Part shown: positions 35,271 through 50,661 of the stretch, piece by piece
Numbering within the stretch: position 1 is the stretch's first letter
Layout: the number at the start of each line of letters is the position of its first letter
Origin: Lutibacter sp. B1
GTDB taxonomy: Bacteria > Bacteroidota > Bacteroidia > Flavobacteriales > Flavobacteriaceae
Reading direction: 5' to 3'
Assembly (NCBI RefSeq): GCF_012524075.1
Contig: NZ_JAAZUI010000012.1
Span: 1 to 64,000 of the forward strand
Length of the DNA stretch: 64,000 nucleotides
Notes under the pieces: generated by a model
The model's database searches: none
Seen by the model: the letters and a program-made list of their open reading frames with translations, nothing else
Told to the model about the DNA's origin: nothing
Made by a program: the position numbers and the translations under genes

Positions 35271-37166
35271 TTAGTCCCAAGTTGGTAAAATACATTGTTT
35301 ATCTAACTTTTTCAACAAAGGATTAATTCCGTCAATTAAACTTTGTTGCATTACTTTAGAATCATCTTTATGGCATTGTAAACAAGCACCAACTAAAAGC
35401 AATTGTTGTTGTTCTTTAACAGTAAAAGGTCTAAAATCTGTCCTGGTAGAGTTTACTACATCTTTACCAACTTCAATTAAAAATGGTACCCAAGCATCTT
35501 CCGGTAAATTATCATTTGGATTGTTTGCATATTCCGGGGTAAACTCCCATTTTCCTTCTCCATTTGCTATACTATAAATTAATTCACCTTTGCCATAACC
35601 TAAAGTTGCTGAATTTGAATGGCACGATTTGCAATCTCTAACTTTTTTTATGGTAGTATGTGGCGAATTTGGTGCATACAATCTATGAAAAGAAACATCT
35701 TCGCCTATTTCTTTACCATGATAACTTCCTTTATCAATAGTCAAAATCATACCGGGAACTGCCGGTTCAATATGTTTTCCTTCATTATTTTCACGAACTC
35801 CCATTGCTGGTAGCGATGATGAAAACTCAGCCACAAATTCTTTCCATTGCCCTTTTCCGTATTTTTTATCCAATAAATCAAAAGCTCTAGGCTCGTTTTT
35901 ATCAAACTCGTTATGGCAACCAATACAACGTGAAGTCCATGATGAATGACACGTTGAACAACTCACATTTTGATGTGCGTTATCACGTGAACAAATTTCA
36001 GATTGAGGCTTTAACTCGTGTAATTTACCATCTTTCTTTCCTATTAAAAACGCATTTCCTAATGAATCAACAAACGTATTTACCAATGGATGTCCGTCTT
36101 TTTCAACAGCAATAATTGGTTTATTCGTATGCTTATACTCTCTATGTGTAAAAACCAATAAACTTTCAATATCTAAAGAATCGTACGGAATTGTAGTTGG
36201 TTTATTTTTAAAATGACAGTCTGAACATTGCAATTTAACCACTTGTTCTTCATGGGCATATTGTTTTCCATCACCCATAACTTCATGAGATGAATGGCAA
36301 TCAATACACAACAAACCTTTGGTATGATGTACATCTTCCTCAATATACTTATACACTCTTTTATCTTCTAAAACTCTATACCCTTCTATAGTGTTAATTT
36401 CACCTTCATCTAAAAGTGTTTCTTGCCAACCCTCATAATTAGTTGAAATTCTACTCGATCGGCTATGACAACCAAAACAATGCTCGTTAGTTACAAATAC
36501 ATCTGTTGAAGGATGAAATTTCGGAAGTGTTTTTTTATCCGATTTTAGATATTCAGCTAAATCGTTTTTAGAATTTTCCGAATAATTTAAATGACAAGCA
36601 TTGCAACCTCCTCCTCTACTTAACTGATTAATAGCTCCAAATTCTTTTTTTTCTGCGCCTAAATGGCAGTTAGCACATAAATCTCGTAAATGTTTATCGG
36701 AAGCAGAGTATTGAATATCTTTAATATGATAATGATAATTGGGAGAATCAGCTTCTCCAAAAATATATTTATCAACTGCTACAATACCACTATTAGTTGT
36801 CATTAAAGAATTTTCTATTTTGTGAAGCTCATTTGGATGACACTTCCCACAAGTTTCTTTAGCATCAGATAAATTTCCCGGAATTAGAACCATTCCCTTA
36901 TGAGATTCTTCCATATCTAACGTATTGGTTTGCCCTAAATGACAGCTTGCACAACCAATTAACTCGGGATTATGATATTTAGAAAACCCTTTTGTATTTT
37001 GATGACATACCAAACAAGATTCTTTATCACCACTTTCAACTTTGGTATATTCATCATCTGTAATAAAACTGGTATCAAAAGAATTTTTATTCTTTAAAAA
37101 AAACAAAGTAATGATTATTAAACCAATCACTAAAAAAAGCCACAATCTAGAATCTTTTATTTTCAT
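35271..37166 (-). CDS. Membrane-anchored dodecahaem cytochrome c
   Basis: A 631-residue multihaem cytochrome with twelve CxxCH motifs (CLVCH, CASCH, CGKCH, CANCH, CNACH, CFGCH, CIDCH, CSDCH, CSTCH, CIGCH, CKSCH, CLQCH). A single N-terminal hydrophobic segment (WLFLVIGLIIITLFFL, residues ~9-24) would anchor it in the inner membrane with the haems in the periplasm. I do not recognise a named family; spacing of haems 1-5 and 6-12 suggests two lobes. It is divergent from the PsrA-type operon over 239 bp, so an electron-carrying role to or from the reductase or the quinone pool is an inference. It could alternatively be a reductase or sulfur-compound oxidase. Confidence 0.85.
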   Translation of the reverse strand: MKIKDSRLWLFLVIGLIIITLFFLKNKNSFDTSFITDDEYTKVESGDKESCLVCHQNTKGFSKYHNPELIGCASCHLGQTNTLDMEESHKGMVLIPGNLSDAKETCGKCHPNELHKIENSLMTTNSGIVAVDKYIFGEADSPNYHYHIKDIQYSASDKHLRDLCANCHLGAEKKEFGAINQLSRGGGCNACHLNYSENSKNDLAEYLKSDKKTLPKFHPSTDVFVTNEHCFGCHSRSSRISTNYEGWQETLLDEGEINTIEGYRVLEDKRVYKYIEEDVHHTKGLLCIDCHSSHEVMGDGKQYAHEEQVVKLQCSDCHFKNKPTTIPYDSLDIESLLVFTHREYKHTNKPIIAVEKDGHPLVNTFVDSLGNAFLIGKKDGKLHELKPQSEICSRDNAHQNVSCSTCHSSWTSRCIGCHNEFDKNEPRAFDLLDKKYGKGQWKEFVAEFSSSLPAMGVRENNEGKHIEPAVPGMILTIDKGSYHGKEIGEDVSFHRLYAPNSPHTTIKKVRDCKSCHSNSATLGYGKGELIYSIANGEGKWEFTPEYANNPNDNLPEDAWVPFLIEVGKDVVNSTRTDFRPFTVKEQQQLLLVGACLQCHKDDSKVMQQSLIDGINPLLKKLDKQCILPTWD

Positions 37167-37405: not shown

Positions 37406-39649
37406 ATGACTACTTCAAGAAGAAAATTTATAAAAATTTCTGCTTTAGGTTTAGGTGGTGTAGCAGCTTCTACAACTGCACTAAATATGTTTGGCGCAAA
37501 TTCATATTTAGACGAGTTGGTTAAAGAAAATATTGCTAAAAAATTCAAGAGAACCCCTACCTATTGCGAAGTTTGTTTTTGGAAGTGTGCTGCTTGGACC
37601 TATACAGATGAAGAGGGAGCAATTAAAAAAATTATAGGTAATGATGATGATCCACATTGTTACGGACGTTTATGCCCTAGAGGTACTGGCGGAGTTGGTA
37701 TGTATAATGATGAAGACCGACTAAAAACACCTTTAATTAGAACCACCGTAAATGGTGAAGAAACTTTTAGAGAAGCTAGTTGGGATGAAGCCCTAGATTT
37801 GATAGCCTCAAAATTTAAAAATATAAAAGAAACCTATGGTGCTGAATCATTTGCTCTTATTAAACACGGAGCACCTGGAGCACACTTAGAACACTTATTT
37901 AAAGCTTATGGGTCAGACACCATTGCCGAACCGGCTTATGCGCAATGTAGAGGACCACGTGAAACTGGTTTTGCTTTAACTTTTGGATCATGGGTAGGTT
38001 CACCAGAACCAACTGATATAAGAGACACCAAATGTTTGGTGCTTATTGGTTCGCATATAGGTGAAAACATGCATAATTCACAAGTTCAGGAAATGTCTGA
38101 CGCTATTGATAATGGAGCTACTATTATTACTGTAGATCCAAGATTTTCAACTGCAGCCAGTAAATCTAAATTTTGGTTACCAATAAAACCGGCTACTGAT
38201 ATTGCATTAATGCTTTCTTGGATGAATGTTTTAATTGAAGAAGACATTTATGATAAAGAATATATTAAAAAATACGCTACCGGTTTTGATGAATTAAAAA
38301 ATCATGTAAGTCAATATACTCCTGAATGGGCATACGGAATAACCGGAATTAAACCTGAAGAAATTAGAGAAACTGCAAGAGCAATGGCACATGCAGCACC
38401 TTCTGTAATTATACATCCCGGACGACATGTTGTTTGGTATGGTGATGATTCTCAAAGAGCTAGAGCAATGGCAATTTTAAATGCTTTATTAGGTTCTTGG
38501 GGACGTAGAGGAGGTTTCTACTTTAAAGAAAGTATAAAAGTTCCTAAATACCCACATCCTGAATTCCCGGAACCAAAATGGGGTTGGAAAGAAATTGGAG
38601 CTAAATATCCTTTAGCTCAAATGGGAATTACAACTGAAGTTTTACAAGCGGCATTACCAAGTGAAAATAATGAATATCCTGTAAAAGCAATGATGATTGC
38701 CGGTACAAATATTACTAAGTCTATTCCTAATAAAAAATTATTGGAAGAAGCAATTGATGCTTTAGAGTTTTTGGTAGTAATTGACACTATGCCAATGGAC
38801 GTTACCGGTTATGCTGATGTTGTTTTACCTGAATGTACTTATTTAGAACGTTACGATGGTATTCGATCTGCAACAAACAGAGAGCCTTCCATAGCTGTTA
38901 GAGTTCCTGCAGTTGAACCAAAATACGATTCAAAACCAGTTTGGTGGATTTCTAAACAAATTGGAGAACGTTTAGGTTTAGGTGAATACTTTAATTATGA
39001 TGATTTTAAAGAAGTGATAGATTGGCAATTGAAAAAAATGGGAACTTCTTTAGAAGAAATGGAAAAAATTGGCGTTAAAAATTTTCCTCGTACATCCGGA
39101 CCACTTTATTTAAATGAAAATGAAACTTATACATTCCCTACTGCAAGTGGTAAAATCGAATTATATTCACATGAATTAAAAAACTTAGGCTTTGATCCAA
39201 TGCCTAATTATACTAAACATCCGGAACCACCTCAAGGTTTTTACAGATTAAATTATGGTAGAGCTCCTATGCATACTTTTAGTAGAACAGCTAATAACCC
39301 TAATTTAAATGATTTGAAAAGTGAAAATAATCTATGGGTAAATCCAAAAGTAGCACGAATACTTGGTTTAAAAACAGGTCAAGCAGTATGGTTAAGAAAT
39401 CAAGATGATGTTACTTCAACTTTTTCAATAAAAGTGAGAATTACAGAAAGAGTTCGTTGGGATTCTGTATATATGGTTCATGGTTTTGGACACGATAATA
39501 AAAAATTGAGCCGAGCTTATGGAAAAGGTATTAACGATACTCAATTAATTTCAAAAGTAGCAATTGATCCTATTATGGGAGGTACTGGTATGAGAGGAAA
39601 TTTTGTAACAATTTTAACTGAAAACCCACATAAAAATATTGAGATATGA
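37406..39649 (+). CDS. Tat-exported molybdopterin oxidoreductase (PsrA/PhsA type)
   Basis: A 747-residue catalytic subunit of the DMSO-reductase superfamily, predicted to reduce polysulfide, sulfur, thiosulfate or tetrathionate in the periplasm. A twin-arginine signal (TSRRKFIKISALGLGG) begins it. The proximal [4Fe-4S] ligands are C54, C57, C61 and C90 (C-x2-C-x3-C-x28-C), and the probable Mo ligand is C181 in YAQCRGPRETG, Cys as in PsrA/PhsA rather than Ser or Sec. Later segments TYLERYDGIRSATNREPSIAV and PTASGKIELYSHELK are typical. psrB overlaps by 4 bp. Arsenate or tetrathionate reductase are alternatives, but the rhodanese and YeeE/YedE neighbours favour a sulfane-sulfur substrate. Confidence 0.88.
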   Translation: MTTSRRKFIKISALGLGGVAASTTALNMFGANSYLDELVKENIAKKFKRTPTYCEVCFWKCAAWTYTDEEGAIKKIIGNDDDPHCYGRLCPRGTGGVGMYNDEDRLKTPLIRTTVNGEETFREASWDEALDLIASKFKNIKETYGAESFALIKHGAPGAHLEHLFKAYGSDTIAEPAYAQCRGPRETGFALTFGSWVGSPEPTDIRDTKCLVLIGSHIGENMHNSQVQEMSDAIDNGATIITVDPRFSTAASKSKFWLPIKPATDIALMLSWMNVLIEEDIYDKEYIKKYATGFDELKNHVSQYTPEWAYGITGIKPEEIRETARAMAHAAPSVIIHPGRHVVWYGDDSQRARAMAILNALLGSWGRRGGFYFKESIKVPKYPHPEFPEPKWGWKEIGAKYPLAQMGITTEVLQAALPSENNEYPVKAMMIAGTNITKSIPNKKLLEEAIDALEFLVVIDTMPMDVTGYADVVLPECTYLERYDGIRSATNREPSIAVRVPAVEPKYDSKPVWWISKQIGERLGLGEYFNYDDFKEVIDWQLKKMGTSLEEMEKIGVKNFPRTSGPLYLNENETYTFPTASGKIELYSHELKNLGFDPMPNYTKHPEPPQGFYRLNYGRAPMHTFSRTANNPNLNDLKSENNLWVNPKVARILGLKTGQAVWLRNQDDVTSTFSIKVRITERVRWDSVYMVHGFGHDNKKLSRAYGKGINDTQLISKVAIDPIMGGTGMRGNFVTILTENPHKNIEI

Positions 39650-40179
39650 GATATGCAATGGTAATTGACACTTTAAAATGTGTTGGATGTAGCGATTGTG
39701 TAGTTGCTTGTCAAACAGAAAACGATGTCCCAATTGGGTATTGTAGAGATTGGATTACAGAAACCGTAAATGGTGCATATCCAAATATCGAATTAGAATT
39801 AAAATCTGAACGTTGTAATCATTGTGAAAATGCTCCTTGTGTTAGATGTTGCCCTACGGGTGCAAGCCATATAATTGATGGAGGTATCGTTTTAGTAACA
39901 GCTGATGAATGTATTGGTTGTGGTGCATGTATAGAATCTTGTCCTTACGATGCACGTTTCCAACATCCTGATGGATATGTAGATAAATGTACATTCTGTC
40001 ATCATAGATTAGAAAAAGGACAACTACCTGCTTGTGTTTCAGTTTGTCCAACAAAATGTATGTATTTTGGAGATTTAGATAATCCTAACAGTGAAGTTTC
40101 ACAATTATTAAAAAACAGAAAACATAAAACATTAGCTCCTGAAGCAGGAACTAATCCTCATGTTTTTTATTTAATTTAA
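39646..40179 (+). CDS. Four-cluster ferredoxin subunit (PsrB type)
   Basis: A 177-residue electron-transfer subunit linking the Mo subunit to the membrane subunit. Four cysteine groups are visible: CVGCSDCVVACQTEN, CNHCENAPCVRCCP, CIGCGACIESCP and CTFCHHRLEKGQLPACVSVCP, giving four [4Fe-4S] clusters as in PsrB, PhsB and DmsB. There is no signal peptide; it would travel with the Tat-exported partner. It overlaps psrA by 4 bp and precedes the membrane subunit by 11 bp. Confidence 0.93.
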   Translation: MRYAMVIDTLKCVGCSDCVVACQTENDVPIGYCRDWITETVNGAYPNIELELKSERCNHCENAPCVRCCPTGASHIIDGGIVLVTADECIGCGACIESCPYDARFQHPDGYVDKCTFCHHRLEKGQLPACVSVCPTKCMYFGDLDNPNSEVSQLLKNRKHKTLAPEAGTNPHVFYLI

Positions 40180-40190
40180 AAATTTAAATT

Positions 40191-41132
40191 ATGCAAGAAG
40201 AATTATTTACAAGCGGACGTAATATTCCAAATATTGACCCATCACTAAATATTTGGCATTGGCCCATTTCAGTATATTTATTTTTAGGAGGTTTAGCAGC
40301 AGGACTATTATTTTTTGCAGGATTAGTAACTTTATTAAATAAAGAAAAAGATTATCCTACTACAGTAAAATATGCATCATTAGTATCTCCAATAGCTTTA
40401 ACTTTAGGATTGTTGGCTTTATTTTATGACCTAACTCATAAATTTTATTTTTGGAGACTGTACACAACTATAAGATTAGAATCTCCAATGTCTTGGGGAG
40501 CTTGGGTTTTACTTATAATTACACCATTATCCTTTTTATGGGTATTTAGTTATTATTCTGAAGTATTTACAAAATGGCCTTTGAAATATGATTTTTTAAA
40601 GAATTTAGAGCGTTTTTTAAGTAAAAATAGAAAATATATAGCAATGGCTTTAGTTCCTTTATCAATAGTATTAGGAATTTATACAGGTATTTTATTATCT
40701 GCCTTTAACGCAAGACCATTATGGAACAATGCTATTTTAGGGCCTTTATTTTTAACATCAGGACTATCAACAGGAGCAGCAACTATTATTTTATTAACTA
40801 AAAATGCTAAAGAAAAACACTTATTCAGTAAAATAGATTTAGTATTGATAATTATAGAATTAGGCCTTATTGTACACATGATTATGGGAATGTATGCAGG
40901 CTCACAAGTTCAATTGGAAGCTATGGAATTATTGGTAGGTGGCGAATTTACTCTAATGTTTTTTGGCTTTGTAGTACTACTTGGTTTATTAATACCTGCA
41001 ATTTTAGAATTAACTGAAATAATAGGTTATAAAATTCCTGTGGCAATACCTGCTATTCTTATATTAATTGGAGGATTGGTATTTAGATTTGTTATGGTAG
41101 AAGCCGGACAAATAACTCGTTACCTTTATTAA
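40191..41132 (+). CDS. NrfD/PsrC-family membrane subunit
   Basis: A 313-residue integral membrane protein with eight to nine hydrophobic segments. WHWPISVYLFLGGLAAGLLFFAGL near the start and the following acidic/histidine residues are typical of NrfD/PsrC quinol-interacting subunits; a YDLTHKFYFWRLYTTIRLESPMSWGAWVLL segment near 85-115 is the best conserved region. It probably takes electrons from menaquinol and hands them to the ferredoxin subunit. It is the third gene of the psrABC-like set. Confidence 0.9.
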   Translation: MQEELFTSGRNIPNIDPSLNIWHWPISVYLFLGGLAAGLLFFAGLVTLLNKEKDYPTTVKYASLVSPIALTLGLLALFYDLTHKFYFWRLYTTIRLESPMSWGAWVLLIITPLSFLWVFSYYSEVFTKWPLKYDFLKNLERFLSKNRKYIAMALVPLSIVLGIYTGILLSAFNARPLWNNAILGPLFLTSGLSTGAATIILLTKNAKEKHLFSKIDLVLIIIELGLIVHMIMGMYAGSQVQLEAMELLVGGEFTLMFFGFVVLLGLLIPAILELTEIIGYKIPVAIPAILILIGGLVFRFVMVEAGQITRYLY

Positions 41133-41145
41133 AACAACATAAATC

Positions 41146-41673
41146 ATGAATTTAGAAAATCAAAATAAACACACATATTGGAATCCATATTTTGGAGGAT
41201 TTCTATTCGGTTTAGTCATCATATTCACTTTTTATATGACTGGTAGAGGTTTAGGAGCAAGTGGAGCCATGAAAAGTACTGTTGTTGCAGTTGTAGATAC
41301 CGTAGCACCTACACATGCCGAAAATAATGAATATTACAGCAAATTTATTAGTGAAGATAAATCGCCTCTTGATACTTGGTTAATTTTTGAAGTAATAGGT
41401 GTATTACTTGGTGCATTTATATCTGGAGGATTATCAGGCAGAATAGGTTGGAGAGTTCAACATTCACCAAAAATAACATCAAAAAGAAGACTTATTTTCG
41501 CTTTAATTGGTGGTATTTTGTTTGGACTAGGAGCTCAAATTGCTCGTGGTTGTACTAGTGGTGCCGCTTTAAGTGGCTTAGCTGTTCTTTCAACAGGAGG
41601 TATAATAACTATGTTAGCTATATTTGGAACAGCTTATTTAGCAGCATATTTTTTTAGAAAAAACTGGATTTAA
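41146..41673 (+). CDS. YeeE/YedE-family transporter half, first of pair
   Basis: A 175-residue membrane protein, half of the usual ~350-residue YeeE/TsuA fold, with the signature GLGAQIARGCTSGAALSG (C136), equivalent to the Cys motifs of the thiosulfate channel TsuA. Two to four transmembrane segments flank a periplasmic-looking loop at ~45-75. Family knowledge: TsuA/YeeE passes thiosulfate by relay of conserved Cys residues. The leader ATTAAAACAACATA recurs before the second half-gene, as would be expected after a gene duplication or a shared translation signal. The pair probably forms one transporter for sulfane sulfur. Confidence 0.87.
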   Translation: MNLENQNKHTYWNPYFGGFLFGLVIIFTFYMTGRGLGASGAMKSTVVAVVDTVAPTHAENNEYYSKFISEDKSPLDTWLIFEVIGVLLGAFISGGLSGRIGWRVQHSPKITSKRRLIFALIGGILFGLGAQIARGCTSGAALSGLAVLSTGGIITMLAIFGTAYLAAYFFRKNWI

Positions 41674-41691
41674 TTAATTAAAACAACATAT

Positions 41692-42282
41692 ATGGGACCT
41701 TTAATTCCAAACGGTATAATTCCAATAGAATGGGATAGCATAATTGCAATTTTAATAGGTATAGCCTTTGGGTTTATACTTGAATCTTCAGGATTTTCTT
41801 CTTCCAGAAAGCTTGCAGGTGTATTTTACGGCTATGATTTTGCGGTATTAAAAGTATTTTTTACAGCAGGTATTGTAGCATTAATCGGTATTTATTATAT
41901 GGATTATTTAGGATTTTTAGACGTAGCTCAGCTATACGTTCATCCAACATATTTATGGGGTGCAATAATTGGTGGTGTTATTATGGGAGTAGGATTTGTG
42001 GCCGGAGGTTTTTGTCCCGGCACAAGTTTATGTGCAGTAGCAATTGGTAAAATTGACGCAATAATATATGTGTTAGGTATCATGATAGGTGTATTTATTT
42101 TTTCTGAATTTTACCCTCTTTTTGATGAATTATACACAGGCTCTTTCTTAGGAAATATAACACTCGTAGATTCTTTGGGTGTATCGCCATATTGGCTTAT
42201 ATTTATTTTCGCAATAATCGCAATAATTGCTTTTGTAGTTGCAGATTTTGTTGGAAAAAAAATAAAAAAAGTATTTTATTAA
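41692..42282 (+). CDS. YeeE/YedE-family transporter half, second of pair
   Basis: A 196-residue membrane protein, complementary half to the preceding gene. Signature Cys are in GFVAGGFCPGTSLCAVAIG (C108 and C114), and an ESSGFSSSRKLAG motif sits near residue 31. The pair resembles the YeeE/YedE pairs often found beside rhodaneses in Bacteroidota and Proteobacteria, which are proposed to move sulfite, thiosulfate or persulfide sulfur. It follows the first half by 18 bp and precedes the anchored rhodanese by 16 bp, supporting transfer of sulfur between these proteins. Confidence 0.87.
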   Translation: MGPLIPNGIIPIEWDSIIAILIGIAFGFILESSGFSSSRKLAGVFYGYDFAVLKVFFTAGIVALIGIYYMDYLGFLDVAQLYVHPTYLWGAIIGGVIMGVGFVAGGFCPGTSLCAVAIGKIDAIIYVLGIMIGVFIFSEFYPLFDELYTGSFLGNITLVDSLGVSPYWLIFIFAIIAIIAFVVADFVGKKIKKVFY

Positions 42283-42298
42283 TTAAAACTATAAATAA

Positions 42299-42961
42299 AT
42301 GATTAATAGAAATTTAGTAAAAGTTTTATCTTTTAGATATCCAATTATAGCAGCTATATTTTTAATTCTTGCCGGTGGTTTAGTATTATTACCTAAATAT
42401 GAAAAACAAAAGGGAATAGCACCACAAGAATTATTAAATAAATCAACTAGTCCGGAAAGATATATTTCAACAGACCAATTAGCCGATATCATCATAAATC
42501 AAGATCCTTCTTATATATTTGTTGATGTTAGAGATGAAGAAAGTTTTAACAAATACACTTTACCAAACGCAGTTAATATACCTCTTAAACAATTATTTGA
42601 TGAAGATTTAGTTATGTACTTAAATCAAGATCAATTTGATGTTGTTCTTTTTTCTAATGATAATTTTTATGCAGATCAAGCATGGATACTTTGCAATCGT
42701 TTAAAATATAAAAACCTTCATGTTTTAAAAGGAGGATTAAACGAGTGGTATAATACAATTATAAACCCGCCTTTTCCTAATGAAAATATGCCGGCTCAAG
42801 ATTTTGAATTGTTTTCTGCAAGAAAAGCTGCAAGTATGTATTTTGGTGTAGCATATCCGGAACAAGCAAAAAAAGAGGTTAAAGCCCCAATAAAAACAGC
42901 ACCTAAAAAAATAGTTCCTGTTAAAAAGAAAAAGAAAATGCCTGTTGAGGGTGGTTGTTAA
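42299..42961 (+). CDS. Membrane-anchored rhodanese-fold protein lacking catalytic Cys, GGC tail
   Basis: A 220-residue protein with an N-terminal transmembrane anchor (residues ~12-31) and one rhodanese domain (~55-155). The usual catalytic Cys loop reads VVLFSNDNFYADQ, so Ser119 replaces Cys, and the only other internal Cys is C132 in a helix. After a Pro/Lys-rich linker it ends KKIVPVKKKKKMPVEGGC, identical in its last 18 residues to the next protein. A C-terminal Gly-Gly-Cys on a flexible arm is reminiscent of SoxY, which carries sulfur on such a Cys. I infer a sulfur carrier rather than an enzyme. Confidence 0.82.
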   Translation: MINRNLVKVLSFRYPIIAAIFLILAGGLVLLPKYEKQKGIAPQELLNKSTSPERYISTDQLADIIINQDPSYIFVDVRDEESFNKYTLPNAVNIPLKQLFDEDLVMYLNQDQFDVVLFSNDNFYADQAWILCNRLKYKNLHVLKGGLNEWYNTIINPPFPNENMPAQDFELFSARKAASMYFGVAYPEQAKKEVKAPIKTAPKKIVPVKKKKKMPVEGGC

Positions 42962-42987
42962 TTTTCAACTATTATAAAATAACATTT

Positions 42988-43605
42988 ATGAAAGAATTAG
43001 AAAAAACCAAAAGGTTATCGATTGCAGCAGTAATTTCAATATTGGTGGTATTAATTGGTCTGTTAACTTTTAAAAGACCAAAAATTGTTTACAATGTAAA
43101 TGCTGCAACTACCATAGAAAAAATTACAAATCCCGATTATTTAATCTCTTTAAATAACATTAATAATCCTGATTATATTTTAATTGATGTTAGAAACAAA
43201 TTTGAGTTTGATAGAGGTCATTTGGAAAATGCAATTAATATTGATGCTTCTGAAATTTTAGAAGATGAGAATTTGAAAATTTTTAATGAGTTAAAAAAAG
43301 ATAACAAAACAGTGTTATTATACGGTAAAAATCCAAATGAGGCTATTCCGCCTTATATGCTTCTTTATCAATTGGGCTTTGACAATCTCAAAATTCTAAC
43401 TGTAGAGAATAGTTACCAACAAAATAAACTTGTTACAAAAAATATAGAAATTGAAAAATCTGTTGCAGATATCAATGCTTTTATTCAGGAATCTATAAAA
43501 AAAGCTGAAGTACAACCTAAACCACAACCTAAGGTAGTAAGTACTCCAAAAAAAATAGTTCCTGTTAAAAAGAAAAAGAAAATGCCTGTTGAAGGCGGTT
43601 GTTAG
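42988..43605 (+). CDS. Second membrane-anchored Cys-less rhodanese-fold protein, GGC tail
   Basis: A 205-residue paralogue of the preceding protein: transmembrane anchor ~10-27, rhodanese fold ~45-140 with ILIDVRNKFEFDRGHLENAINI, and the catalytic loop replaced by VLLYGKNPNEA (Tyr112 at the Cys position). The terminal Cys205 of the MPVEGGC tail is the only cysteine in the whole protein. I take the ATG at 42988, since the longer frame begins with TTG inside the previous gene. It is the last gene before a strong terminator, closing the psr operon. Confidence 0.82.
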   Translation: MKELEKTKRLSIAAVISILVVLIGLLTFKRPKIVYNVNAATTIEKITNPDYLISLNNINNPDYILIDVRNKFEFDRGHLENAINIDASEILEDENLKIFNELKKDNKTVLLYGKNPNEAIPPYMLLYQLGFDNLKILTVENSYQQNKLVTKNIEIEKSVADINAFIQESIKKAEVQPKPQPKVVSTPKKIVPVKKKKKMPVEGGC

Positions 43606-43947: not shown

Positions 43948-44937
43948 ATGAAAAAATTAACATCATATTTAGTATTACTTTTTATAGCTGCTACAATATT
44001 TAGTAGTTTTAAAAACACAGAAAAACAAACAAACGAACCTTCTTCAGAATTTGAACTTTTAGTTCAATATTTAGAGGAAAACGGAAACTTCATTAACAGC
44101 ACTTCTGCACCGGCAATAATTCAACCAGAAGAAATTAAAAAGAATCTTAAAAATAAAAAATATTTAGTATTAGATATAAGAAGTGAAAGCTGGTTTGAAT
44201 ATGCTCATATCCAAAATGCTGTAAATATTGAAGGTTCTGAAATACTTAACTATTTTGAAACAGAAATTGATCCTTCAAAATTTGAAAAAATTACCATAGT
44301 ATGTTACTCAGGTCAATCTGCAGCATATTATACAAGTCTTCTAAGATTATATGGTTATGATAATGTATATAATTTAAAATGGGGAATGAGCTCTTGGAAT
44401 GAAGAACTTGCAGAAAATATTTGGATTAAAAACTCAAAAAGCGACTATGTAAATGACCTTGAAACAACTGCCAATCCTTTACCTGAAAAAGGAGCATTTC
44501 CAGTGTTAGAAACCGGTAAAACTGAAGCTAAAGACATTTTAAAAGAACGTGTAAAATTAGCTTTTGAAAAACCTTATAAAGAATTTATAGTTAAAGCTGA
44601 TAGTGTATTTCAAAGTCCTTCAGATTTTTATATTGTTAACTATGTAGATGAAGAAAAATACAACTTTGGACATATTAAAGGTGCTGTTAGATATGAACCA
44701 AGTTCATCTTTAGCACCTACAACAGATTTATACACTTTACCAGCTGATAAAAATATTGTAGTTAATTGTACAACAGGACAATCTGCAGCTTATGTTGTTG
44801 CTTATTTAAACGTGTTAGGCTACAACGTTTCAAACTTAGCTTACGGATCAAACAGTTATATGAATTCAGTTTTAACTGAAAAAGGTTGGGATGGTTTCTC
44901 TACCGATGAAATTAAAAATTACCCAGTAATAGAATAA
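43948..44937 (+). CDS. Exported tandem rhodanese (two intact active sites)
   Basis: A 329-residue sulfurtransferase with signal peptide (MKKLTSYLVLLFIAATIFSS) and two rhodanese domains. Catalytic loops are CYSGQSA (C119) and CTTGQSA (C274), both with the cradle Cys and conserved Gly-Gln. An extended linker (~155-215) separates them. Location is periplasm or outer face. It would move sulfane sulfur to or from thiosulfate, polysulfide or a protein acceptor. It opens the second unit of the sulfur island (two tandem rhodaneses, porin, regulators), 47 bp before its paralogue. Confidence 0.9.
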   Translation: MKKLTSYLVLLFIAATIFSSFKNTEKQTNEPSSEFELLVQYLEENGNFINSTSAPAIIQPEEIKKNLKNKKYLVLDIRSESWFEYAHIQNAVNIEGSEILNYFETEIDPSKFEKITIVCYSGQSAAYYTSLLRLYGYDNVYNLKWGMSSWNEELAENIWIKNSKSDYVNDLETTANPLPEKGAFPVLETGKTEAKDILKERVKLAFEKPYKEFIVKADSVFQSPSDFYIVNYVDEEKYNFGHIKGAVRYEPSSSLAPTTDLYTLPADKNIVVNCTTGQSAAYVVAYLNVLGYNVSNLAYGSNSYMNSVLTEKGWDGFSTDEIKNYPVIE

Positions 44938-44983: not shown

Positions 44984-45979
44984 ATGAAAAAAATATCATT
45001 ATTACTAATAGGATTATTATTAGTTCCAACGCTTTTCTTAACATCATGTGATGAAGGTGATGATATTGGAGTAGATGTAGCTCCCTCCTTTACGTTAATG
45101 AAAGATTATCTAATTAATAATAATTTAGATATAGATAAAATCGTTAAAAATACTGATGGCGCAATGTTTGTTGCCGGTGCACCTGCTGAAGCAGATTTAC
45201 AAACATTTTTAGACAAATATTATATAATTGACATTAGAAGTGCTTCAGATTATGAAAAAGGACATATTCAAGGTGCAAAAAATGTGGCCTTTGGTAATAT
45301 TTTAGATGAAGGTGCTGCAGCAGGAAGTAAACCCGTTTTAGTTGTTTGTTATACCGGACAAACTGCTTGTTATGCAACAGCTTTAATGCGCATGTATGGT
45401 TATACAGATACACAAGCTTTAAAATGGGGTATGTCTGGATGGAATGAAACTACCGCAGGCTCATGGAATAATAATATTGGAAATGAAGCTGATGGCCATG
45501 CAAATTGGACTTATGGAGCAGAACCTTCAAAACAAGTATTTAGTGATCCTTCAATTAGTAGTTTATCAACTAGTGGAGCTACAATTGTAAACAACAGAAT
45601 AGAAGATGTTGTTGCAGAAGGTTTTAAAACCGTAAAAGGTACTGATGTACTAAATTCGCCAACCAGTTATTATATCAATAATTATTTTTCTGCTACTGAT
45701 TATGCTTCATTTGGCCATATAGACGGATCTTACAGAATTAACCCATTAACATTAGCTGACAATAGTTATAAAAATTTAGATCCTTCGGCTAAAGTAGTAA
45801 CTTATTGCTATACAGGTCAAACTTCAGCAGTAGTAACAGCTTGTTTAAGAGTATTAGGCTATGATGCTTATAGCTTAACTTTTGGTGTAAATGGTTTATA
45901 CAATTCAAATTCTGCTTGGGCATCTAACCAATGGGGAGGCGATAGTAATCCAAAAAATTTACCGTTAGTAGTTAACTAA
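44984..45979 (+). CDS. Lipoprotein tandem rhodanese (two intact active sites)
   Basis: A 331-residue lipoprotein: signal with lipobox FLTSC (C22), then two rhodanese domains with catalytic loops CYTGQTA (C122) and CYTGQTS (C275). The first 20 residues after the lipid Cys are acidic (DEGDDIGVD). It is paralogous to the upstream gene, giving four intact rhodanese active sites in this unit against none in the two anchored proteins of the psr operon. Followed by a large stem-loop before the porin gene. Confidence 0.9.
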   Translation: MKKISLLLIGLLLVPTLFLTSCDEGDDIGVDVAPSFTLMKDYLINNNLDIDKIVKNTDGAMFVAGAPAEADLQTFLDKYYIIDIRSASDYEKGHIQGAKNVAFGNILDEGAAAGSKPVLVVCYTGQTACYATALMRMYGYTDTQALKWGMSGWNETTAGSWNNNIGNEADGHANWTYGAEPSKQVFSDPSISSLSTSGATIVNNRIEDVVAEGFKTVKGTDVLNSPTSYYINNYFSATDYASFGHIDGSYRINPLTLADNSYKNLDPSAKVVTYCYTGQTSAVVTACLRVLGYDAYSLTFGVNGLYNSNSAWASNQWGGDSNPKNLPLVVN

Positions 45980-47292: not shown

Positions 47293-47946
47293 ATGACTGG
47301 CGATAAAGAAATTATAAGGGAAAAATTGAATGATTATTATTCTGAAATTTTTGAAAAAGAACTTATTGATGAAATTGTAAGTATTGCTAAATACAAAACA
47401 ATTCCTGCCGGTGGAATTTTAATTGATATTGGAGATAATATGACACATGTTCCTTTAATTTTAGAAGGCGCTGTTAAAATTATTAGAGAAGATAAAAATG
47501 GTGATGAAATTGCTTTATACTTTTTAGAAAAAGGTGATACTTGTGCAATATCTTTTATCAATTGTATTAACAGAAGTAAAAGCATGTTTAGAGGCGTTGT
47601 TGAAAAAGATACAGAAGGTGTTTTTGTACCGGTAGAAAAAGTTGATGAATGGCTTAAAAATTATGAATCTTGGCGACATTTTATTATTGACAGTTATCAC
47701 ATTCGTTTAATTGAAATGGTTGAGTCTATAGATTGTTTGGCCTTTATGAAGTTAGATAACAGGTTGCTTAAATATTTAACCGATAAAGTACAGATTATGA
47801 AAGATAATACATTGGTTATTACACATCAAGAAATTGCCGATGATATAAATACTTCGAGAGTTGTTGTTTCTCGTTTACTTAAACAACTGGAAAACGAGGG
47901 GAAAATTAAAATTAGAAGAAATAAAATTATTATTGATAGTATCTAA
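47293..47946 (+). CDS. Crp/Fnr-family transcription regulator 1
   Basis: A 217-residue regulator: cyclic-nucleotide-binding-fold sensor (~10-125), dimerisation helix (~128-150) and Crp-type HTH (ITHQEIADDINTSRVVVSRLLKQLENEGKI, ~175-205). It lacks FNR iron-sulfur cysteines at the N-terminus, but has C84 and C91 in DTCAISFINC, conserved in its paralogue, which may sense redox state or persulfide. In the recognition helix Val replaces the Glu that contacts the operator in E. coli Crp and Fnr. It is the likely regulator of the neighbouring sulfur operons. Confidence 0.9.
   Translation: MTGDKEIIREKLNDYYSEIFEKELIDEIVSIAKYKTIPAGGILIDIGDNMTHVPLILEGAVKIIREDKNGDEIALYFLEKGDTCAISFINCINRSKSMFRGVVEKDTEGVFVPVEKVDEWLKNYESWRHFIIDSYHIRLIEMVESIDCLAFMKLDNRLLKYLTDKVQIMKDNTLVITHQEIADDINTSRVVVSRLLKQLENEGKIKIRRNKIIIDSI

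Positions 47947-47972: not shown

Positions 47973-50661
<2,689 letters not shown>

Follow-up and report, generated by a model that had tools for sequence, protein, structure and literature searches.

Sud is a periplasmic polysulfide-sulfur transferase that serves polysulfide reductase and uses a normal active-site Cys, and the motif of the SoxY arm is GGCGG. This arm is a C-terminal swinging arm (PMC11237559), and protein thiosulfonate transfer by DsrE3A/TusA (PMC4175335) provides a precedent for the chemistry considered below. In the YeeE/YedE-type transporter TsuA, the relay follows the order C293, C91, C22, and then C17 of YeeD as the "fourth cysteine" (PMC11073785). According to PMC11582611, little is understood of how sulfur is imported into the cytoplasm. 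Here, we present an analysis of two adjacent genes of Lutibacter sp. B1 (Flavobacteriaceae), located in the first 64,000 nucleotides of contig NZ_JAAZUI010000012.1 of assembly GCF_012524075.1 (referred to as the window), that encode proteins A and B. The observation in a preliminary description of the window that these are two rhodanese-fold proteins without the catalytic Cys and with a Cys-tipped tail is confirmed. More importantly, the terminal Cys recurs in relatives within the genus, the family, and the phylum.

Protein A (42299..42961 including the stop codon; all features of the window given with coordinates lie on the + strand unless stated otherwise) is a single-transmembrane (TM) pseudo-rhodanese of 220 amino acids with a C-terminal Cys arm. 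Protein B (42988..43605) is a second anchored pseudo-rhodanese of 205 amino acids with an A-type tail; its start was taken as the ATG at 42988, while the list of open reading frames (ORFs) begins it at an upstream TTG (42955). PF00581 is the sole Pfam domain in each protein and matches A with 52.0 bits and B with 49.8 bits, exceeding the cutoff of 22.2, while the matches of A and B in an NCBIfam scan were all far below their cutoffs. AlphaFold2, based on 51 sequences for A and 45 for B, models a rhodanese core in both (mean predicted local distance difference test [pLDDT] 85 and 84, respectively; block pLDDT mostly 90-97), and the top matches of both models in the PDB by Foldseek were mostly rhodaneses or rhodanese-like proteins. 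The TM helix of A comprises residues 4-29 (42308..42385) based on the AlphaFold2 helix, hydropathy, and an N-in charge; that of B comprises residues 2-27 (42991..43068) based on the AlphaFold2 helix. In the loop VVLFSNDN of A, Ser119 (codon 42653..42655) occupies the column of the rhodanese catalytic Cys in an alignment with catalytic controls, and the active-site loop of B (VLLYGKNP) contains Tyr112 (codon 43321..43323) and no Cys; neither protein has the loop Cys of an active rhodanese. Both A and B end in KKIVPVKKKKKMPVEGGC (42905..42958 with terminal Cys220 in A and, as read from the sequence, 43549..43602 with terminal Cys205 in B). The last 18 residues are identical, and the tail DNA has only two silent base differences. 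Cys205 is the sole cysteine of B, and A contains Cys132 in addition to Cys220. The sequence, PF00581, and AlphaFold2 in this way bear out the preliminary description as to the anchored folds, the missing catalytic Cys, the identical tails, and the single cysteine of B. The genome holds three stretches of DNA that encode EGGC and then TAA or TAG: those of A and B, and one inside another gene; a third EGGC gene in the genome was rejected because this extra match is out of frame.

To follow the terminal Cys in close relatives, 60 genomes (the own genome, 36 of the same genus, and 23 of the same order) were searched, of which 39 matched at E ≤ 0.001, a count that includes ordinary rhodaneses. Among the loci read (30, with that of the window), all 29 complete A proteins and all 27 complete B proteins end in EGGC, and the remaining copies are interrupted by contig ends. 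The residues invariant in these loci include the terminal Cys in both proteins, Ser119-Asn120-Asp121 in A, and Tyr112 in B (27 rows), and no cysteine other than the terminal one is invariant. A broader set, referred to as the named set, consists of the best 80 of 160 relatives' loci from a contig scan and spans Lutibacter, Polaribacter, Winogradskyella, Maribacter, other Flavobacteriaceae, Bacteroidales, and Saprospiraceae. GGC followed by zero to two residues is kept in 82/82 complete A-type proteins (79 A and three Saprospiraceae lipoproteins that score alike with the A and B profiles), and it is invariant in alignments A4 and A6 of A. Among the B-type proteins, 68/72 have the Gly-Gly-Cys tail, while the tail was lost in L079, L082, L097, and L107 (loci and genomes are cited by our L and G numbers). 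Altogether, A has no invariant cysteine but the terminal one, and the terminal Cys of B comes close to invariance. By comparison, the tail is present on only 5 of the 70 rhodanese ORFs of >300 amino acids in these loci, which are mostly double rhodaneses and all (70/70) have a C-x-[S/T]-G loop, and a Cys end was found in none of the 392 other + strand ORFs of at least 200 amino acids in the 80 related loci. Conversely, the column of the catalytic Cys contains Ser in 80, Gly in 3, and Cys in none of the 83 A-type rows versus Cys in 5/5 controls; Cys is present in 2 of 75 rows filed as B, both of which are double rhodaneses truncated at contig ends. In L079, L082, and L097, the tail of A is kept and that of B is lost; a different rhodanese of L082 has the end QEGGC, which looks like a relocation of the tail. 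The double rhodaneses L070:11613-12635 and L075:9776-10798 end in APGCD and, thus, have a different near-terminal Cys.

A profile search of 395 Bacteroidota genomes matched 61, comprising the own genome, two of the same family, and 58 of the same phylum that we read as lying outside the window's class. We read 64 loci (L135-L198, in batches of 30 and 34) with 65 matching ORFs, the window's own excluded and four coming from the two family members. The ORF ends in Cys followed by at most one residue in 63/65 and in Gly-Cys followed by at most one residue in 62/65; an early-stopping ORF of 134 amino acids (L192) and an ordinary rhodanese (L197) are the exceptions. The match ends at profile position 205 of 216 or earlier, i.e., before the Gly-Gly-Cys, in 49 of 66 match rows, so that those matches were not driven by the tail. 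The preliminary description had counted it against the terminal Cys if most relatives had tails without Cys; the counts in the A-type, B-type, and phylum-wide proteins are the opposite.

We also used a profile, A9, that was cut before the tail. Among 395 genomes of the window's class, 58 matched at 1e-14, mostly by low-scoring ordinary rhodaneses. The 30 loci read contain 40 matching ORFs, of which one Cys-bearing frame running off its locus was excluded; the others were sorted by reading alignment rows, and the misaligned L241 was placed by its CGNGG motif. Cys is among the last three residues in 12/13 ORFs without a catalytic Cys (the two of the window among the 13) and in 0/26 complete ORFs with a catalytic Cys (Fisher P of about 3e-9, with relatedness ignored). 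The exception, an ORF of 172 amino acids in L220, has neither the catalytic Cys nor the tail Cys. Because the terminal Cys recurs across the same-genus, named, and tail-free sets, chance or a one-off duplication was rejected. Together with the 82/82 A-type proteins versus 5/70 long rhodaneses, these data support the expectation that loss of the active-site Cys and presence of the tail correlate; however, the correlation is not strict. The tail as an absolute replacement of the catalytic Cys was rejected since tailed intact rhodaneses exist, although homologues with a catalytic Cys plus the tail, which the preliminary description had named as evidence to the contrary, are a minority form (the 5/70 above).

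The sequence of the tail varies across lineages while the Cys persists, with ends such as KKREGC, VRMGC, KRVLGGC, and SGGCG. The A proteins of L128, L129, L130, L132, and L133, four of which are in loci labelled Saprospiraceae, end in GGCG, and L223 ends in SGGCGG. The description of the tail as Lys-rich holds for the window proteins but not for all relatives: the ends are acidic in L126, L136, and L221, and in L136 both A and B have the acidic tail VEVEEGGC. Lys-rich character was, therefore, rejected as the defining part of the tail. The idea of a terminal Cys on a flexible arm is supported by a tail that is modelled as low-confidence coil in A and B and by a near-invariant Cys in an otherwise variable tail sequence.

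In other classes, the N-terminal YedE half (YedE_N) is fused to the counterpart of A. In thirty-one of the phylum-sample ORFs, a single protein starts with a YedE half and continues into a pseudo-rhodanese at the C terminus, and YedE_N is present at the site in 62/64 loci, the exceptions being L136 and L197. This arrangement supports that the arm is tied to sulfur transport. Beyond the phylum, Gemmatirosa (Gemmatimonadota) has a YedE_N plus pseudo-rhodanese that ends in RLRRRGC (PF00581, 56.7 bits), with a YedE_C half and a rhodanese upstream as judged by eye. In a plasmid search with A, the matches were that of Gemmatirosa and a rhodanese-like one of Hydrogenophaga. Two separate loci are present in each of G462 (L155/L184), G499 (L160/L189), and G658 (L157/L176); in G462 and G499, one locus is standalone and the other fused. 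A scan of 30 loci with the B profile showed B-type copies in none but the Flavobacteriaceae loci L134-L136, and no further ones were seen when 14 larger regions were read.

The fused proteins also bear on the side of the membrane. Of 30 analysed (one of 461 amino acids excluded), 26 have six hydrophobic segments and in 27 the last loop between segments is positive, which together place the rhodanese outside. The N-terminal flank of the TM helix is the more positive one in 76/83 A rows. Lipobox-like variants are present in A of L112 and in the tailed proteins of L128, L129, and L132, although the pattern also flags L058, which appears to have a plain TM segment. These sequence features lend good support to a periplasmic location of the domain and arm in A and in the fused form. 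For B, charge leaves room for the cytoplasmic side; this placement appears disfavoured by the tailed lipoproteins.

In the window, A and B follow genes that match the partners named in the preliminary description. Upstream lie genes for a PsrA/PhsA-type molybdoenzyme (37406..39649; Tat-like N terminus by eye), a PsrB/NrfC-type iron-sulfur subunit (39646..40179; family models), and an NrfD/PsrC-type membrane subunit (40191..41132; PF03916, 173.9 bits). They are followed by the two halves of a split YeeE/YedE transporter, both above the PF04143 cutoff of 27, i.e., the C-terminal half YedE_C (41146..41673; 87.7 bits) and, immediately upstream of A, the N-terminal half YedE_N (41692..42282; 58.6 bits). 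Cys136 of YedE_C aligns to TsuA C293 and is Cys in 88/89 non-gap rows, the remaining row having X. Cys108 of YedE_N, which we take as TsuA C91 by profile position and motif rather than by direct alignment, is Cys in 123/123 rows. In a manual alignment to a piece of TsuA, 123/123 YedE rows have Ser, Gly, or Thr where C22 is presumed to lie; likewise, PmpAB lacks Cys at this position (PMC11582611). Downstream of B, two double rhodaneses (43948..44937 and 44984..45979; PF00581, 105.2 and 87.6 bits) lack the Cys tail and have intact catalytic loops (CYSGQ, CTTGQ, CYTGQ, and CYTGQ), giving four intact sites. Side observations in this genome include a divergent multihaem cytochrome gene (35271-37166, - strand) whose product resembles ExtM of selenite/tellurite operons (237 bits; cutoff, 800), tandem genes for Crp/Fnr-like regulators (assigned by eye) downstream of the locus that are alike in length and sequence (47293-47946 and 47973-48629), and a further pair of matches to YedE-type halves at another site (G000:C183:73734-74340).

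The order PsrA-PsrB-NrfD-YedE_C-YedE_N-A-B recurs in the named loci, usually with the divergent multihaem gene upstream. Only some of these loci also have catalytic rhodaneses, porin genes, or Crp-like genes, and many show no catalytic rhodanese nearby. The 14 larger regions, hand-picked from the phylum-search loci, comprise eight fused and six standalone loci. All eight fused loci contain genes for an 8-haem cytochrome, a protein starting with FxRFWHW, YedE_C, and the fusion; five of the six standalone loci carry PsrABC and one a rhodanese resembling mercaptopyruvate sulfurtransferase (72 bits; cutoff, 250). The octaheme cytochrome of L205, with eight CXXCH motifs, matches TIGR04315 (octaheme tetrathionate reductase family; 588 bits versus a cutoff of 375), and L205 also has a match to PF01292 (b561; 100.2 bits versus a cutoff of 30.1); octaheme and b561 were confirmed by family scan in L205 only, while the other seven fused loci were assigned by their eight CXXCH motifs and position. 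Accordingly, the Psr-type enzyme and the YedE pair recur as proposed, while the set of partners is wider than the four local rhodanese sites, with an octaheme cytochrome in place of PsrABC in the fused loci.

Based on these comparisons, we consider it somewhat probable that A and B are anchored pseudo-rhodanese carriers, in which the terminal Cys of an arm is loaded with sulfane sulfur or thiosulfate for exchange with redox enzymes and YedE. In this model, the terminal Cys would receive sulfane sulfur or thiosulfate, as a persulfide or thiosulfonate, from a periplasmic redox enzyme or from rhodaneses, and the arm would present it to the first cysteine of the YedE channel (YedE_C Cys136, corresponding to TsuA C293), or the exchange could run in reverse. 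With the arm on the outside, its Cys would precede C293 and, thus, be an entry cysteine that comes before the three of the TsuA relay. The rhodanese fold would be retained as a scaffold or binding module and no longer be an enzyme. In loci without YedE, the arm might serve the Psr complex alone in the manner of Sud. We propose more tentatively, as less likely than not, that these proteins form a new class of carriers in which the working Cys has moved to the tip of an arm and serves as the periplasmic entry cysteine of a split YeeE/YedE. In this broader proposal, one interchangeable arm could feed the channel from three unrelated enzymes, i.e., a Psr-type molybdoenzyme, an octaheme cytochrome, or a rhodanese; a common site into which neighbouring tails plug would keep them alike; and some lineages may have added the arm to working rhodaneses. 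The arm as a stand-in for a missing first channel Cys was rejected: PMC11073785 names C293 as the first cysteine and gives third place to C22, which lies on the cytoplasmic side.

Several observations weigh against carriers of this kind. Intact-loop rhodaneses carry the tail in L126, L128, L129, and L132, and a rhodanese in L082 does so with one of two loops intact; in L154 and L156, a Cys at the loop position is combined with the tail. B lacks the tail in the 4/72 named copies and also in L220, and the arm is not basic in every relative. The N-terminal flank is more positive in only 21/75 B rows, and charge, therefore, does not settle the side of B. G697 (L136), a genome that is 99% complete, keeps PsrB-NrfD-A-B, and no PF04143 match was found in it; Robertkochia (L112) has the A and B tails with no YedE at the site and YedE elsewhere in the genome. 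Because the tails persist in G697 and L112, YedE cannot be the sole partner, and YedE as the only partner was rejected. The PsrA-type enzyme is a relative of PhsA that scores 466.5 bits with NF012032 against an equivalog cutoff of 694, so that the family match would not fix its substrate. Finally, we infer, from sequence and gene context, both the persulfide or thiosulfonate on the terminal Cys and the contact with YedE or Psr.

Part of the evidence on what the arm does comes from the tails of A and B within a genome. For the 68 named loci in which A and B are complete and end exactly in GGC (12 of the 80 dropped), we compared the 12 residues that precede this GGC. A and B of the same genome agree at 9.85/12 positions; between genomes with A bodies that are 60-70% identical, agreement is 7.0/12 for A_i-B_j and 7.1/12 for A_i-A_j. 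When partners were shuffled within clusters, which in effect means one cluster of 59 loci with the other 9 single, 0/5000 shuffles were as high (670 observed versus 504; standard deviation [SD], 11), and for the last four residues 241/272 were observed versus 141 on shuffling (SD, 6.5). The shared tail could result from recent gene conversion between adjacent genes and have no function, as the nearly identical tail DNA in the window and the excess of same codons at same-residue positions (566/862 versus 503 expected; SD, 13) would suggest. However, similarity ends at the stop codon and upstream of the tail, with DNA identity between A and B at background about 19 codons upstream and right past the stop (35% over the 30 bases that follow), each of the 27 pairs compared has matching residues encoded by different codons, and relatives in which the locus shows only one copy also retain the terminal Cys, which contradicts this explanation and leaves it highly improbable. 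Judged by codon use, gene conversion has played some part, and identical residues have also been retained where their codons differ. A shared partner behind the concerted tails is a reasonable inference from this pattern; still, the A-B match would partly reflect gene conversion or shared codon history, and covariation alone is no proof of such a partner, which also tempers the carrier reading. Alternatively, the tail might serve assembly, with the terminal Cys forming an A-B or A-A disulfide or docking in a YedE or PsrA pocket as a tether that never carries sulfur. Tails that match within each genome and a low-confidence coil ending at the Cys speak for this, and the same tail on three adjoining proteins, one of which is an intact double rhodanese, in L126, L128, L129, and L132 would be expected of a shared docking site. 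On the other hand, the terminal Cys is equally constant beyond L134-L136, where no B-type copy was seen in the 30 loci and 14 regions, the tail differs widely by lineage while the Cys stays, and the identified neighbours are mostly enzymes of sulfur compounds; we regard a tether as unlikely.

A thiol sensor, in which the terminal Cys would signal the redox state or the sulfane sulfur of the periplasm to YedE or Psr in the way that SoxT1B signals to SoxR, finds a parallel in that a YeeE-like protein, SoxT1B, can act as a signal unit (PMC11582611) and in the Crp/Fnr-like genes downstream in the window. However, in many of the named loci no such Crp-like genes were found, and in the eight fused loci the fusion belongs to the transporter and adjoins cytochromes, making a sensor improbable. 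We hold a role in metal or metalloid handling, with the C-terminal thiolate and carboxylate binding Se, Te, As, or a metal for the adjacent reductase, to be just as improbable: while the divergent multihaem gene resembles ExtM, a neighbour rhodanese in L211 resembles ExtH (54 bits; cutoff, 200), and putative selenium transporters are among the weak YedE matches, every such match is far below its cutoff, and the octaheme partner in L205 is above the cutoff for the tetrathionate reductase family.

If A and B are sulfur carriers, the family would offer a specific candidate for the supply of a YeeE/YedE-type importer, in which a single residue could be examined. It is present in cultured marine flavobacteria (Lutibacter, Polaribacter, Maribacter, and Winogradskyella) and fused to the transporter elsewhere. 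It would also be a case of an apparent pseudo-enzyme in which the reactive residue has shifted from the active-site loop to the end of the chain and in which the tails of neighbouring genes evolve in concert, and proteins that match the general rhodanese profile only could be reannotated. In the open-licence literature searched, as far as its texts were available, we found no description of pseudo-rhodaneses with a C-terminal Cys arm; this does not establish their absence from print.

Compared with ordinary rhodaneses, such as PspE, A and B share the fold and the conserved D-x-R and GG-x-x-W residues, but lack the catalytic Cys and have the C-terminal Cys arm. Similarly, Sud is a rhodanese fold beside a Psr-type enzyme, while A and B are membrane-anchored and without the active-site Cys; the profile match to PDB entry 1qxn, which we take to be Sud, is weak (E, 0.0026). 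A possible likeness to SoxY lies in the idea of a periplasmic carrier with a Cys near the C terminus on a flexible, Gly-rich arm, ending in GGC in the window proteins, GGCG in relatives, and GGCGG in L223. However, A and B have a predicted rhodanese fold rather than that of SoxY, a TM anchor, and a Cys that is usually the last residue; Sox models gave no match among the ten window proteins scanned, and a genome-wide search for SoxZ was not made. The resemblance to SoxY would be convergent at most. In the YeeE family, of which PmpA/PmpB and SoxT are split or full members, YedE_C and YedE_N correspond to split halves with C293- and C91-type relay cysteines (PMC11582611); section 6 of that paper mentions no rhodanese arm for PmpA/PmpB and SoxT. 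In the case of YeeE(TsuA)-YeeD, a Cys-bearing partner, which is sometimes fused, likewise extends the cysteine relay of YeeE/YedE (PMC11073785). YeeD, however, belongs to the TusA family, uses the Cys of a CPxP motif, acts on the cytoplasmic side, and is joined after the C terminus of YeeE; A and B have no CPxP motif and a rhodanese rather than a TusA fold, and in the fused form a rhodanese fold with a terminal Cys follows the N-terminal half of the transporter and is predicted to be periplasmic.

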